Source: Gammaproteobacteria bacterium
GTDB lineage: Bacteria; Pseudomonadota; Gammaproteobacteria; UBA6429; Thiohalophilaceae
Direction: 5' to 3'
Assembly (NCBI GenBank): GCA_030594815.1
Contig: JAUVEN010000022.1
Span: forward strand, 1 to 33,102
DNA length: 33,102 nucleotides
Positions 13,590-31,547 of the stretch are shown in pieces (the first letter of the stretch is position 1; every line of letters begins with the position of its first letter). The notes under the pieces were generated by a model. The model was not told where the DNA came from. It saw nothing but the letters and a program-made list of their open reading frames with translations, and did no database searches. The position numbers and the translations under genes are program-made.

Positions 13590-15383
13590 ATGTCACTCAA
13601 TCGCCGTGAGTTTATGCAAGTCATGGGTATGGCTGCAGCCGCTGGTATGTTACCAGGCTGTGATAGCAAGCCTGGTTCAGGTAATACCACTATTGGTGCC
13701 GCCGCCGCACCTGGTGATGTTTATAACGTTCCAAAATTCGGTAATGTCACTTTAATGCACATGACAGATTGTCATGCTCAGTTATTACCCATTTATTTCC
13801 GTGAACCAAATGTGAACATGGGAGTAGGTAACGCACATGGCCAACCACCACATTTAGTGGGTAACAAATTATTAGAGCATTTTGCTATCAAGCAAGATTC
13901 ATTAGAAGCACATGCTTTTACTTACCTTAACTATGCTGAAGCGGCAAAAACGTACGGTAAAGTAGGTGGCTTCGCACATTTACGTACTTTGGTTAAAAAG
14001 ATACGTGCGGATCATGGCGCAAATAAAACATTGTTGTTAGACGGTGGTGATACATGGCAAGGTTCAGGTACAGCCTACTGGACACGCGGTAAAGACATGG
14101 TCGGTGCATGTAATCTGTTAGGTGTAGATGTAATGACCGGTCACTGGGAATTCACTTATCTTGATGAAGAAGTTATTTCAAACGTTAAAGACTTCAAAGG
14201 TGACTTCGTTTGCCAAAATGTTTTCGTAAAAGACGATGCTTCTTTTGATTACAACTTTGCAGATTTCGAAGGTTATGACGAAGAAACTCAACGTGCTTTC
14301 AAACCGTACACCATTAAAGAAATGGATGGCGGCATTCGTGTTGCAGTTATTGGTCAGGCATTCCCATATACACCAATAGCAAACCCAGGTCGTTTCATTC
14401 CTGACTGGACCTTTGGTATTCGTGATTCAGAAATGCAAGCAACGGTTGATCAGGTTCGTGCAACTGAAAAGCCAGATGTTGTGGTTGTTATTTCACACAA
14501 CGGTATGGACGTAGATTTAAAAATGGCATCGGTTGTTTCAGGCATTGATGTAATTTTTGGTGGCCATACTCATGATGGCGTACCGCATCCTTCTGTTATT
14601 AAAAATAAAGGCGGTAAAACATTAGTAACTAATGCGGGTTCAAACGGTAAATTCCTAGGGATGATGCAGTTGGATGTTCGTAACGGTAAAGTACAAGACT
14701 TCCGTTATAAATTATTACCTGTTTTCTCTAACTTGTTAGAACCTGATGCAGAAATGGCAAATTACATTGAAGAAGTACGTAAGCCATACCTAACAACATT
14801 AACTGAAGAGTTAGCTGTTGCAGACCAGGTTCTTTATCGACGTGGTAATTTTAATGGTACGTTCGATCAAATTATTTGTGATGCTTTAAATGAAGTAAAA
14901 GATGCGCAGATTTCACTTTCACCAGGTTTCCGTTGGGGTACAACGGTGTTACCAGGTCAGACTATTACGATGGATCATGTAATGGATCAAACCTGTATTA
15001 CTTATCCTGAAACGTATCGTCGTGAAATGAAGGGCTCTGAAATTAAAGCCATTCTGGAAGATGTAGCAGATAACTTGTTCAACAACGATCCTTACTACCA
15101 GCAAGGTGGTGACATGGTGCGTGTAGGCGGACTGGATTACACCATGAGCCCTACAAATAAATTTAACACTCGCGTTACGGATATGGTATTGGATGACGGC
15201 ACTAAGATTGAAGCCGACAAGAGCTATGTTGTAGCGGGCTGGGCAACGGTAGGATCTAAAGCGCCAGGTGCACCTATCTGGGATGTTGTAGCCGATTATT
15301 TACGTACTAAAAAGGTTGCAAAAGTTACCAAGCTCAACACGCCAAAAATTGTTGGTATGGAAGGAAATCCGGGTATCGCATAA
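13590..15383 (+). CDS. soxB: Thiosulfohydrolase SoxB
   Basis: Periplasmic dimanganese enzyme of the Sox pathway that cleaves the sulfone group off SoxY-bound thiosulfate as sulfate. The 597-residue protein belongs to the 5'-nucleotidase/metallophosphatase family. It has a Tat signal (NRREFMQ at 4-10) and the metal-binding blocks MTDCHAQ (Asp60, His62), DGGDTWQGSG (Asp154), GHWEF (His185, the SoxB version of GNHE), ISHNG and FGGHTHDG. The C-terminal nucleotidase domain holds PGFRWG. Cys24 in MLPGC might be a lipidation site, although Pro at -2 is unusual. No soxXAYZ genes lie nearby, so the gene is solitary here. A strong hairpin ends it. Confidence 0.96.
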   Translation: MSLNRREFMQVMGMAAAAGMLPGCDSKPGSGNTTIGAAAAPGDVYNVPKFGNVTLMHMTDCHAQLLPIYFREPNVNMGVGNAHGQPPHLVGNKLLEHFAIKQDSLEAHAFTYLNYAEAAKTYGKVGGFAHLRTLVKKIRADHGANKTLLLDGGDTWQGSGTAYWTRGKDMVGACNLLGVDVMTGHWEFTYLDEEVISNVKDFKGDFVCQNVFVKDDASFDYNFADFEGYDEETQRAFKPYTIKEMDGGIRVAVIGQAFPYTPIANPGRFIPDWTFGIRDSEMQATVDQVRATEKPDVVVVISHNGMDVDLKMASVVSGIDVIFGGHTHDGVPHPSVIKNKGGKTLVTNAGSNGKFLGMMQLDVRNGKVQDFRYKLLPVFSNLLEPDAEMANYIEEVRKPYLTTLTEELAVADQVLYRRGNFNGTFDQIICDALNEVKDAQISLSPGFRWGTTVLPGQTITMDHVMDQTCITYPETYRREMKGSEIKAILEDVADNLFNNDPYYQQGGDMVRVGGLDYTMSPTNKFNTRVTDMVLDDGTKIEADKSYVVAGWATVGSKAPGAPIWDVVADYLRTKKVAKVTKLNTPKIVGMEGNPGIA

Positions 15384-15403
15384 GAATACTTTGGTTTACT
15401 TAT

Positions 15404-15433
15404 AAAAAAGGGAAGCTTCGGCTTCCTTTTTTT
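15404..15433. terminator. Intrinsic terminator after soxB
   Basis: GGAAGC (15411-15416) pairs with GCTTCC (15421-15426) around a TTCG tetraloop, extended by an A-run before and a 7-base T-run after. It is strong for soxB and usable in both directions. Confidence 0.93.
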
Positions 15434-15443
15434 ATGAAAAAAA

Positions 15444-15671
15444 TTAGCCACAAACGACTGCATGGACGCAGGAGGTAGAGCAACGCAGGAGCAGTTGCCG
15501 AGGACACGAAGAACACTAAGATAAATAAATATTTTGAACCACTGGGGCACGGGGTAGATTATTAAAATTAAATCTAACAAGTTTTATATTTTGAATTTCC
15601 CAGTGCCCCCGTGTTCCCAGTGGTTTATTCTTGATGTTTTTCTTGGTGTTCTTCGTGTCCTCGGTGGCTAA
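15444..15671. repeat. Inverted-repeat element carrying a nested 47-nt module, at the soxB/hemH junction
   Basis: The ends are TTAGCCAC (15444-15451) and its complement GTGGCTAA (15664-15671). Just inside them the arms share CGAGGACACGAAGAACAC and its complement. A second inner pair of arms (CCACTGGG...) follows. The left arm differs from the right mainly by 47 extra bases inserted after TTAGCCAC. Without them the element would be about 181 bp. The arms repeat with a 9-base period (CACGAAGAA, CACCAAGAA), as in the element at 26834-26973. The right arm extends into the hemH reading frame. Confidence 0.88.
15454..15500 (+). repeat. 47-nt hairpin module, copy A
   Basis: Begins ACGACTGCATGGACGCAGG and ends GCAGTTGCCG. 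It contains the stem GCAAC/GTTGC around the loop GCAGGAGCA. It matches copy B (18435-18481, opposite strand) at 42 of 47 positions by eye. Confidence 0.85.
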
Positions 15672-16716
15672 ATATTTTTTTCTCGATATCTAACCAATCA
15701 GAGGCATGTTGTTTGATGAGTTGCCCCATCATACCGATATGCTCAACATCATCATTAAGTGCAGGAATGTATTCAAATTTGTCACCACCCGCATTTAAAA
15801 AGTAATCTCGATTCTCAACTTTAATTTCTTCTAATGTCTCAAGACAGTCAGCTGAAAAACCGGGACAAATAACTTGTACATTTTTAATGCCTTCTTTAGC
15901 CCAATTAATTAAAACATTTTTTGCATACGGCTTGAGCCACTCTTCTCGACCAAAGAGTGATTGGAAGGCCAGGATCCATTGATCATCTTTAAGTCCCATT
16001 TTTTCAGCAACAAGCCGCGCTGTTTTATGACATTCGCAAAAATAGGGATCACCCTGATCCAGGTAACGTTGTGGTAAACCATGAAATGAAAATAATAATT
16101 TTTCAGGTGCGCCATTTTCTTTTTGATAAAAAGTAATGCTGTTTACCAATGCCTGAATATAAGCTTCATGATCATGGTAATGCTGCACCATGCGAAACTC
16201 AGGTATCCATCGCCATGTTTTTAATTCGTCAGCTATTGCATCAAAAGTTGATGCGGTAGTAGTCGCTGAATATTGCGGGTAAAGAGGTAATACCAGAATA
16301 CGACGGGCTCCCGCTTTTTTTAAATTAAGTAAGGCGGTTTTAATTGAAGGATTACCATAACGCATGGCAAGTTCAACTTTTACCTTTCCTTTAAAGTGCG
16401 GAGTGATCGCTTGTTGTAATAAAGCCTGTTGTTTTTTACTTATACTTAACAAGGGTGAACCTTCGTCGGTCCAGATTTTTTTATAATTTTTTGCTACAGG
16501 TCTTGGTCGAATGCGCAAAATAACACCGTGTAAGGCAAACCACCAAATTAATCGTGGCGCTTCTACAATACGTGGGTCACTGAGAAATTCTGCAAGGTAT
16601 CGTCGCACCGCTGATGGTGTGGGTTGGTCTGGTGTACCCAGGTTAGTAATTAAAATACCGGTACATGAAGAGTCTTCATCGTGGCTGAAATGCTCTGTGC
16701 CAATGTAATTTGTCAT
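15625..16716 (-). CDS. hemH: Ferrochelatase
   Basis: Inserts ferrous iron into protoporphyrin IX, the last step of protoheme synthesis. The active-site His212 (SFHGLPQRY) and Glu293 (CLETLEE) are both present, as are NLGTPDQP near the N-terminus, RYGNPS and PLYPQYSATT. At 363 residues it is somewhat longer than the E. coli enzyme (320). Part of the extra length is the C-terminal tail HRGHEEHQEKHQE, which is encoded by the right arm of the adjacent repeat element and is not family sequence. The catalytic core looks complete. It converges with soxB, and a Sox/cytochrome-rich lifestyle would need heme. Confidence 0.95.
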   Translation of the reverse strand: MTNYIGTEHFSHDEDSSCTGILITNLGTPDQPTPSAVRRYLAEFLSDPRIVEAPRLIWWFALHGVILRIRPRPVAKNYKKIWTDEGSPLLSISKKQQALLQQAITPHFKGKVKVELAMRYGNPSIKTALLNLKKAGARRILVLPLYPQYSATTTASTFDAIADELKTWRWIPEFRMVQHYHDHEAYIQALVNSITFYQKENGAPEKLLFSFHGLPQRYLDQGDPYFCECHKTARLVAEKMGLKDDQWILAFQSLFGREEWLKPYAKNVLINWAKEGIKNVQVICPGFSADCLETLEEIKVENRDYFLNAGGDKFEYIPALNDDVEHIGMMGQLIKQHASDWLDIEKKIFSHRGHEEHQEKHQE

Positions 16717-18344: not shown

Positions 18345-18358
18345 TTACTGTGCACGGA

Positions 18359-18611
18359 TAGCGAAAAGCCAGAGAACAAGGCGAAACTCAACGAAAAAGC
18401 GGAGTGTACGATGAGGTCGTTCTCGCACATCCCTCGGTAATTGCTCCTGCATTACCCTACCTCCTGCGTCCATGCAGTCGTGTGCTACACGACACCTGAA
18501 CATCCTTGTTCAATGTACATGAGCACCCCAAGAGTATTTCCTCGTATTGTTTACAACAATACTCAGGGCACTTTTGAGTTGGGTTTCAACGCCGTAATCT
18601 GGCTTCGCAGC
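18359..18611 (-). repeat. MITE-like element B, filled with the 47-nt module
   Basis: Read on the minus strand, this is the same family as element D (31295-31503). The shared blocks include AGATTACGGCGTTGAAA, TACTCTTGGGGTGCTCATG and TACACTCCGCTTTTTCGTT. The terminal repeats are imperfect (TAGCGAAAAGCCAGA at the left end, complement of GCTGCGAAGCCAGA at the right end). It is 253 bp against 209 bp for D; the difference is essentially the 47-nt module. It has no coding capacity and abuts the ettA stop codon. Confidence 0.85.
18435..18481 (-). repeat. 47-nt hairpin module, copy B
   Basis: On the minus strand it reads ACGACTGCATGGACGCAGG onwards like copy A. The stem is GTAAT/ATTAC instead of GCAAC/GTTGC, with the loop GCAGGAGCA unchanged. 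Element D lacks these bases at the matching position. Confidence 0.85.
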
Positions 18612-24691: not shown

Positions 24692-24878
24692 TCAACGCAA
24701 AGGCGCAAAGAACGCCAAGGTTCGCAAGGAAAAACCAAATAATAATTCATAAGATGGTTGACGAAATAAACTAATACTTTAGTTTTGGTTTATTTGCTAT
24801 TTCTCATCTAGAAAAAAGCAGCCAAGCTCTACAAGCAATTTTTGATTTTCCTTTGCGTTCTTTGCGCCTTTGCGTTGA
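24692..24878. repeat. Inverted-repeat element between the PerM-type gene and phoH
   Basis: The arms share TCAACGCAAAGGCGCAAAG (left, from 24692) and its complement CTTTGCGCCTTTGCGTTGA (right, ending at 24878), each extended by a diverging GCAAGG/GCAAAGG tail. About 110 bases lie between. The arm is built of 8-9-base units (CGCAAAGG, CGCAAAGAA). It sits between two convergent genes and has no protein-coding content. Confidence 0.88.
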
Positions 24879-26833: not shown

Positions 26834-26973
26834 TTGGCCACCAAGGACACGAAGAACACCAAGAAAAAAGTTAATAAGAAACAGCTAAAATATAAAAATA
26901 TTATGGATATTTCTGTCTATTTTTCAGTTTTTTCTTTTCAAACTTGGTTTTCTTCGTGTTCTTGGTGGCCAAA
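26834..26973. repeat. Inverted-repeat element between galT-like gene and bcp
   Basis: The left arm TTGGCCACCAAGGACACG (from 26834) matches the complement of the right arm ending TTGGTGGCC (26943-26972), with few differences over about 30 bases. About 80 AT-rich bases lie between. The units CACCAAGGA, CACGAAGAA and CACCAAGAA repeat with a 9-base period, as in the 15444-15671 element. A short open frame in the left arm is an artefact of this periodicity. Confidence 0.88.
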
Positions 26974-26996
26974 GCTCTTAAACTATAGCCGAGTTA

Positions 26997-28167: not shown

Positions 28168-28430
28168 CTGCTGTCGAAGCGGCGTTATTTATGACCACTT
28201 AAATGAAATTATTGTCCGAATACTTCGCTCGAAGCATCTTTTTCGTTATGGCTGCGTTATAAAAGGTCTCAAAACGCTTATTTTATGCCAATTCGGCAAC
28301 TGCTCCTGCGTTGCCCTATCTTCTCCTTTCCATAGGCTCGTCGTGCGCTTTTTCGACAATTTATGCCTTGCCCTAACGAAAAATTGAAAAATCTATTAAG
28401 TACAAAGCATTCGACAGATAAAAAGCATCT
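28168..28430. repeat. MITE-like element C containing a diverged module copy
   Basis: This lies in the 400-base gap between the divergent GalT-like gene and dapA. Approximate terminal inverted repeats are TATCTG-CTG-TCGAAGC on the left and the complement of TATCTGTCGAATGC on the right, about 260 bp apart. The interior holds the module copy at 28294-28344. No coding frame is supported. The edges are my estimate from the inverted repeats. Confidence 0.6.
28294..28344 (-). repeat. 47-nt-type hairpin module, copy C (51 nt, diverged)
   Basis: On the minus strand it ends GGGCAACGCAGGAGCAGTTG followed by CCGA, like copies A and B, and starts CACGACGAGCC. The hairpin half is almost identical to copy A with a full 6-bp stem GGCAAC/GTTGCC. 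The other half has drifted and is 4 bases longer. Confidence 0.75.
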
Positions 28431-31298: not shown

Positions 31299-31503
31299 CG
31301 AGAAGCTAGATTACGGCGTTGAAAACCGCCTCAAAATGTGCCGTGAGTACTTTTGAAAAAAGTGTGAGCAAATACTCTTGGGGTGCTCATGTACATTGAA
31401 CAGGGATGTTCAGGTGCCGTGAAGTACAGGGATGTGCGAGAACGGCCTAACGTACACTCCGCTTTTTCGTTGGTTTTCGCCTTGTACTCTAGCTTCTCGC
31501 TAG
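31295..31503 (+). repeat. MITE-like element D with perfect 16-bp terminal inverted repeats
   Basis: The left end CTAGCGAGAAGCTAGA (31295-31310) is the exact complement of the right end TCTAGCTTCTCGCTAG (31488-31503). The similarity continues imperfectly inward to about 30 bp. The 209-bp element has no coding frame and no internal transposase. It is the same family as element B (18359-18611) on the opposite strand but lacks the 47-nt module. Both ends carry CTAG, which may be part of the repeat or a duplicated 4-base target. Confidence 0.9.
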
Positions 31504-31547
31504 CCATTGAGATTTATATATTTTTAGAAGGTTTAGAAAGGTTCATC

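Follow-up and report, generated by a model that had tools for sequence, protein, structure and literature searches.

Are the extra bases in one arm of the palindromic repeat at 15444–15671 an original part of that repeat or an insertion, and, if inserted, what sort of unit are they and how might it move? The repeat, a member of the GGACACGAAGAACAC family with no strand assigned, is placed between a terminator-like hairpin (15408–15437) and hemH in the window, by which we mean the whole 33,102-nucleotide stretch of DNA analysed here. Its right arm (15616–15671) is continuous, as the sequence-only reading of this locus had reported, and its left arm is split into 15444–15453 and 15501–15546 by a unit of exactly 47 bp at 15454–15500 on the plus strand, which reads ACGACTGCATGGACGCAGGAGGTAGAGCAACGCAGGAGCAGTTGCCG. 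This unit, assigned to type I, was defined from its sequence, BLAST of the genome, an orthologous empty site, and the matches found once it is cut out. We consider it very probably a mobile element inserted at AG, and at 47 letters it is one of the smallest DNA units seen behaving in this way.

Occupied and empty sites

The ends of the unit are fixed as ACGA...CCG, save one A, because removing ACGA...CCG leaves TTAGCCACAA|AGGACACGAAGAACAC, a gap-free match to an empty genomic copy (AAAATTTAGCCACAAAGGACACGAAGAACACCAAGA). An alternative junction after TTAGCCAC was rejected on the same comparison. The junction had earlier been called ambiguous by one or two bases; some ambiguity does stand, limited to the single A with which unit and target both start. 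The CCGA described as following the module is made up of CCG, which belongs to the unit, and the first base of the host AG. That AG (15501–15502, plus strand; CT on the other strand) is already in the empty site, as seen in the orthologue, the junction set, and the cut-out match.

Two further copies are found in the window. The second, also of type I, was identified by BLAST and host alignment at 18435–18481 on the minus strand, inside an inverted repeat that we call host A (18356–18606, minus strand). A recount gives the same 42 of 47 identical positions that had been claimed between these two copies. All five differences fall within the second hairpin of the unit (H2), and comprise two double compensatory changes (C-G to T-A) and an A·C mismatch that becomes G-C. 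Host A has an empty paralogue, also an inverted repeat, at 31302–31505 on the plus strand (GAAGTAC^AGGGATGTGCG), and the alignment of the two contains a single clean 47-bp gap, with GTAC^AGGGATGTGCG in the paralogue and GCAC[unit]AGGGATGTGCG in the occupied repeat. The third copy, recognized by BLAST and comparison at 28294–28341 on the minus strand, is a diverged 48-bp version (ACGAGCCTATGGAAAGGAGAAGATAGGGCAACGCAGGAGCAGTTGCCG) followed by AA rather than AG. A second GGACACGAAGAACAC palindrome (26834–26982, no strand assigned), found as an inverted repeat, is empty in both arms when these are compared.

In the sister species G003, the orthologous hemH intergenic region carries the same palindrome with both arms empty (TATAGCCACCAAGGACACGAAGG). 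The sequence-only reading had taken the opposite arm as its empty-site control, and that use is borne out by the G003 palindrome and by the window paralogue, which is without exactly 47 bp. The empty G003 orthologue, the empty second palindrome of the window, and the presence of the unit in unrelated hosts refute, at this locus, the idea that the module was original to the palindrome and lost from the right arm, a reading for which we found no supporting point and whose probability we regard as negligible. Judged by these site comparisons, the unit at 15454–15500 is an insertion and not an ancestral part of the palindrome.

The hemH slot also varies among sister species. Behind the same terminator-like hairpin upstream of the hemH 3' end (window 15380–15680; L244, L246, L247, and L248), the palindrome type differs by species and may be GGACACGAAG, GTAGGTTCGAAT, CCACAGAGGTCACGG, or none, so that palindromes replace or add to one another at one place. 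G001 and G006 have other palindromes in this slot, and G007 has no palindrome.

BLAST of the window's genome (a 2.8-Mb assembly in 162 contigs) with the unit returned forty-four matches at E ≤ 0.01, and a pattern search returned forty-seven, compared with one for the reversed control pattern. There are about forty-five copies in total, an abundance that is far from chance. When the unit is cut out, 36 of 43 copies match uninterrupted sequence across the junction elsewhere in the sampled genome, and thus have an empty counterpart; these matches were sought in about 150 kb of the genome selected around copies, a choice that favours finding such repeats. Random intergenic 80-mers gave 52 matches out of 200, and random 80-mers gave 15 out of 200. 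From the comparison with the intergenic controls, the unit is found in repeats far more often than general intergenic DNA is.

Anatomy of the unit and its target

Folded as single-stranded DNA, the unit forms two hairpins (z about −2.4 to −3.3). In the copy at 15454–15500, the first hairpin (H1, CTGC-ATGGAC-GCAG) lies at 15458–15471, a GTAG tag at 15475–15478, and H2 (GCAAC-GC-AGGA-GC-(bulge A)-GTTGC) at 15480–15498, all on the plus strand. H1 and H2 differ in sequence, there is a single GTAG per unit, and terminal inverted repeats are absent (the ends are A... and ...CG). This layout is that of the whole family, in which units of 46–48 nt consist of a variable-stem H1 with loop A(N)GGAY, the GTAG tag, a bulged H2 with loop AGGA, and a final CG. 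The constants across members are the H1 loop, GTAG, the AGGA loop of H2 with its GC/GC closing pairs and bulged A, and the terminal CG. Among twenty-two varied members, TAG is invariant and its preceding G nearly so, with one base between the tag and H2. The module itself had been argued to be mobile; what the letters of this locus did not reveal is that it folds into two hairpins, has a GTAG tag, and belongs to a family with many covarying types.

Support for the stems comes from a set of units drawn from many genera, in which H1 was located by its loop only, avoiding selection for pairing. Over forty-five distinct H1 arm pairs, 93 per cent of positions are paired, compared with 56 per cent after shuffling (maximum 68 per cent in 2000 shuffles). 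The stems include CTGC/GCAG, GCCC/GGGC, GGGC/GCCC, TGTCC/GGACG, CTTAC/GTAAG, and others. The three variable pairs of H2 covary above all shuffles; the stem shuffles ignore relatedness, though the arm pairs are nonetheless distinct and span many stem sequences. At the level of sequence covariation, both hairpin stems are shown to be kept by compensatory change.

A related unit type has an H2 stem of CAGATATT/AAATATCTG and no GTAG before H2 (CCACATGGATGTGGTGAATGCAGATATTGCAGGAGCAAATATCTG), and was seen in Methylobacter and a gammaproteobacterial MAG (L172, L173, and L139). At L125 and L190 it interrupts, in reverse orientation, the H1 loop of a type I unit.

The possibility of a short target preference, raised when the locus was first read, was examined with forty-one distinct junctions gathered without requiring G. 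In 39 of the 41, AG immediately follows the unit on its 3' side, where 9.2 per cent would be expected from the AG frequency in host flanks; host families recur among these junctions, which are thus not all independent but represent at least a dozen different host positions. Purines are preferred at positions 3 and 4 after the junction, and the left flank carries nearly no information. The exceptions to AG are the third window copy (AA) and, with AC, a copy within the pglX gene and the joints of tandem arrays (both described below). No multi-base target duplication was seen at the junctions, which show at most one ambiguous A.

Hosts, nesting, and distribution

Within the window's genome, the unit occurs at two positions of the GGACACGAAGAACAC palindrome, in the loop and the linker of a CCCTCCCC...GGGGAGGG palindrome, in the GTCATTGCGAG... 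and GTAGGTTGGATCAAGCG... hosts, in host A, and in the CGCAAAGACGCA and GGCGTTAGC repeats. Mobility had been argued from two unrelated hosts; we find at least four unrelated palindrome families carrying the unit, in addition to its own family. Elsewhere in the window, a near-perfect 29-bp inverted repeat at 24692–24878 (TCAACGCAAAGGCGCAAAGAACGCCAAGG) resembles the CGCAAAGACGCA repeat in which the L022 copy is inserted. An Rfam search of the window gave no match.

The family is its own host, with units inserted within the GTAG tags and hairpin loops of other units. The outer unit type ACGAGCCCATGGACGGGCGAAGGTAGAACAATGCAGGAGCAATTGTCG illustrates the steps: it is uninterrupted at L068–L071, L074, and L076, carries one insert at GGT^AG (L020) or another at ATGC^AGGAGC (L037 and L067), and carries both at L017–L019. 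In other genera, about ten loci have a unit inserted at GGT^AG, within a GTAG tag that follows an H1, and insertion recurs at GC^AGGAGC in H2-like hairpin loops whose stems are of at least five kinds. Insertions into insertions explain the mosaic palindromes found between the genes of these genomes. Once joined, host flanks form more stable folds, with a median of −25.3 kcal/mol against −15.0 kcal/mol for intergenic controls (P = 7e-5), and the junction base is unpaired in 52 per cent of hosts and 43 per cent of controls, which is no clear difference.

When 84,980 species genomes were scanned for the pattern, at least 117 stretches with the unit were returned. Every placeable titled organism among the matches listed is gammaproteobacterial, some titles giving only 'Proteobacteria', and the taxa listed include Shewanella, Pseudoalteromonas, Methylobacter, Methylomonas, Colwellia, Solimonas, Endozoicomonas, Chromatiales, and others. 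Going by these matches, the unit family is widespread in Gammaproteobacteria. Copy counts reach 111 in Shewanella sp. KJ10-1 and 82 in M. tundripaludum SV96, with 27 in G006, which belongs to the same genus as the window's organism. Phage sequences searched for the unit gave no match.

In Shewanella sp. KJ10-1 (G040:C1; L262–L291 region), units form head-to-tail arrays of up to eight inside a recurrent host repeat. Forty-three of the forty-four within-array spacings are 47 bp, and the units are joined as ...CCG|ACGA... with no AG in between. Many of the Shewanella copies have one host repeat in common, whose own spread therefore accounts for part of the copy number.

A 48-bp in-frame variant was also found inside pglX, the BREX-1 methyltransferase gene, where it adds sixteen residues (DDCMDAGGRATQDAKA; L372:1501–1548, L373, and L374). 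It is carried by E. coli ZF34/ZF31, a Salmonella Panama plasmid, and a Moellerella plasmid, and the pglX alleles of other E. coli plasmids are without exactly those 48 bp.

Possible routes of movement and relation to known repeats

The direct observations that a mechanism has to accommodate are a defined unit, clean insertion, the AG rule, conserved hairpins, nesting, and tandem joining. We give roughly an even chance to the reading that the unit is a non-autonomous, two-hairpin mobile mini-element of 46–48 nt, moved as a folded single strand by an HUH-like route that recognizes hairpins. Under this proposal, the unit moves or once moved as a folded single strand and would be recognized in trans. 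The mover would be a hairpin-binding single-strand nuclease, most likely of HUH type and related to TnpA of IS200/IS605 or to TnpA_REP. The element would be bounded by its two hairpins, and the target would be cut at the CT that pairs with AG. Landing would occur mostly in extruded or looped palindromes, which may produce the nested mosaics. The reported requirements of TnpA_REP are GTAG and a bulged hairpin, with CT as the site of the cut (PMC8266576). The GTAG beside a bulged hairpin, together with CT as the dinucleotide cut by TnpA_REP, favours a REP/IS200 direction.

These same two features would also suit a plain REP mobilized by an ordinary genomic RAYT (TnpA_REP) acting on the GTAG-H2 part, and the window's genome does have six Y1 genes, of which three are bordered by GTAG palindromes (REPtrons). 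However, the three REPtrons (L033:1275–1988, L035:350–1170, and L036:1320–1938) have their own palindromes (GTAGGTCAGACT..., GTAGGTGGGTTCAAG..., and GTAGCCCGGAT..., respectively), which differ from the unit. The module flanks no RAYT in any genome examined, and copies are plentiful where no Y1 gene was detected. Furthermore, CT at the right junction is found only on the strand that does not carry GTAG, which sets the unit apart from the TnpA_REP substrates reported, and H1 is always present in the unit and is not an inverted REP. We regard this explanation as unlikely, while still giving it some weight.

The search for a linked enzyme covered about seventy Y1 loci, namely all six in the window's genome, the Y1 genes of relatives, and those of eight copy-rich genomes. 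None of these genes is flanked by the unit within 1 kb, the nearest locus in this check being 1.15 kb away (L311), and neither a cognate RAYT with the same repeat nor a parental element with the unit's ends and a Y1 gene was seen among them. At L211, a unit and a Y1 gene are about 0.2 kb apart, and this gene was considered as a cognate and rejected; we read the proximity as chance, with the unit in a CCCTC-type host and the gene having its own GGGGTCAG repeats. A search of G006, with its twenty-seven copies, detected no Y1 gene, and the only one found in Shewanella sp. KJ10-1 (L299) lacks its 5' end and has other genes on either side. The Y1 gene at L036 has one stop in the searched frame. Some genomes are incomplete, which makes a gene missing from any one of them weak evidence and the lack of linkage over about seventy loci stronger. 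Copy number does not correlate with Y1 number (Spearman 0.12). Replication-strand bias is likewise absent (25:31 and 19:23 in two genomes), although spread with host repeats may blur it. Y2 (IS91-type) transposases are absent from the organism's own genus and present in Shewanella and Methylobacter. Simple membership of the REP/IS200 group is thus opposed by the lack of a linked RAYT, of a correlation between Y1 genes and copies, and of strand bias, and by the position of CT on the non-GTAG strand.

Spread without any transposition, through replication template switching, gene conversion between hairpins, or recombination carrying composite repeats, would fit the fact that all hosts are hairpin-forming repeats, as well as the exact unit-length arrays and the shared Shewanella host. 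We consider it improbable, since identical, precise ends and the AG rule are met again and again across unrelated hosts and positions, and also within a coding gene, and fixed ends in unrelated sequence are not expected from template switching. A double-strand MITE of a DDE transposase would likewise be small, non-autonomous, intergenic, and multi-copy, but is very improbable for a unit with no terminal inverted repeats and no target duplication beyond one ambiguous A at most. It was set aside along with attC-like and IS110-like readings, the core motifs, two-sided flanking dinucleotides, or inverted repeats with duplications being missing.

We judge the GTAG REPs to be the nearest known kind. 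As described (families 1–24; PMC3733652), they share with the unit a GTAG by a short, often bulged palindrome, compensatory stem changes, and tens to hundreds of intergenic copies per genome. The same source places some families inside other palindromes (A. variabilis GTAG-15 and T. roseum GTAG-23), described there without empty-site junctions or a target rule (PMC3733652). In contrast, the unit here is H1, GTAG, and H2 with fixed ends; empty sites and the AG rule can be read, units nest in each other, no RAYT is linked, and head-to-tail arrays are formed, which are reported as absent or under-represented for REPs. This comparison with the twenty-four families is one of their described features. 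REPINs are also composite, two-hairpin, non-autonomous replicating units, but consist of two inverted REPs over about 70–100 bp (PMC3116915), whereas the unit here has 47 bp and an H1 that is neither an inverted H2 nor tagged with a GTAG.

IS200/IS605 elements and their derivatives (IS608, ISDra2) share subterminal hairpins at both ends, the lack of a multi-base duplication, and a one-sided fixed sequence. The unit differs from them in having no gene between the hairpins, a total of 47 bp, no lagging-strand bias, and no consistent Y1 gene. Rickettsia palindromic elements (RPE) are palindromic units found in frame within genes, as is the 48-bp pglX variant. They are about 100–150 bp long, and to our knowledge their sequences are unrelated to the unit.

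Among the papers listed, literature searches by sequence fragment returned only unrelated primer matches, and searches by concept, which left subscription papers mostly outside, returned the precedent in PMC3733652 and no description of the unit. We judge it to be a new variant of REP-like mini-elements, with 'undescribed' kept as a provisional term. Tentatively, and a little short of an even chance, we propose that these 46–48-nt units are a provisionally new class of two-hairpin mini-transposons with no gene and no terminal repeats, which would insert at ^AG into the loops and tags of repeats, including their relatives, and build the mosaic palindromic repeats of many Gammaproteobacteria, moved by an enzyme other than the linked RAYT of classical REPs.

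The spread of REP sequences has been described as unresolved (PMC8266576). This family supplies many exact pairs of occupied and empty sites, a sharp target rule, and a defined unit with fixed ends, along with nesting intermediates (empty, one insert, and two inserts) and copies in culturable strains. With such a family, how REPs move, and by which enzyme, becomes directly testable.
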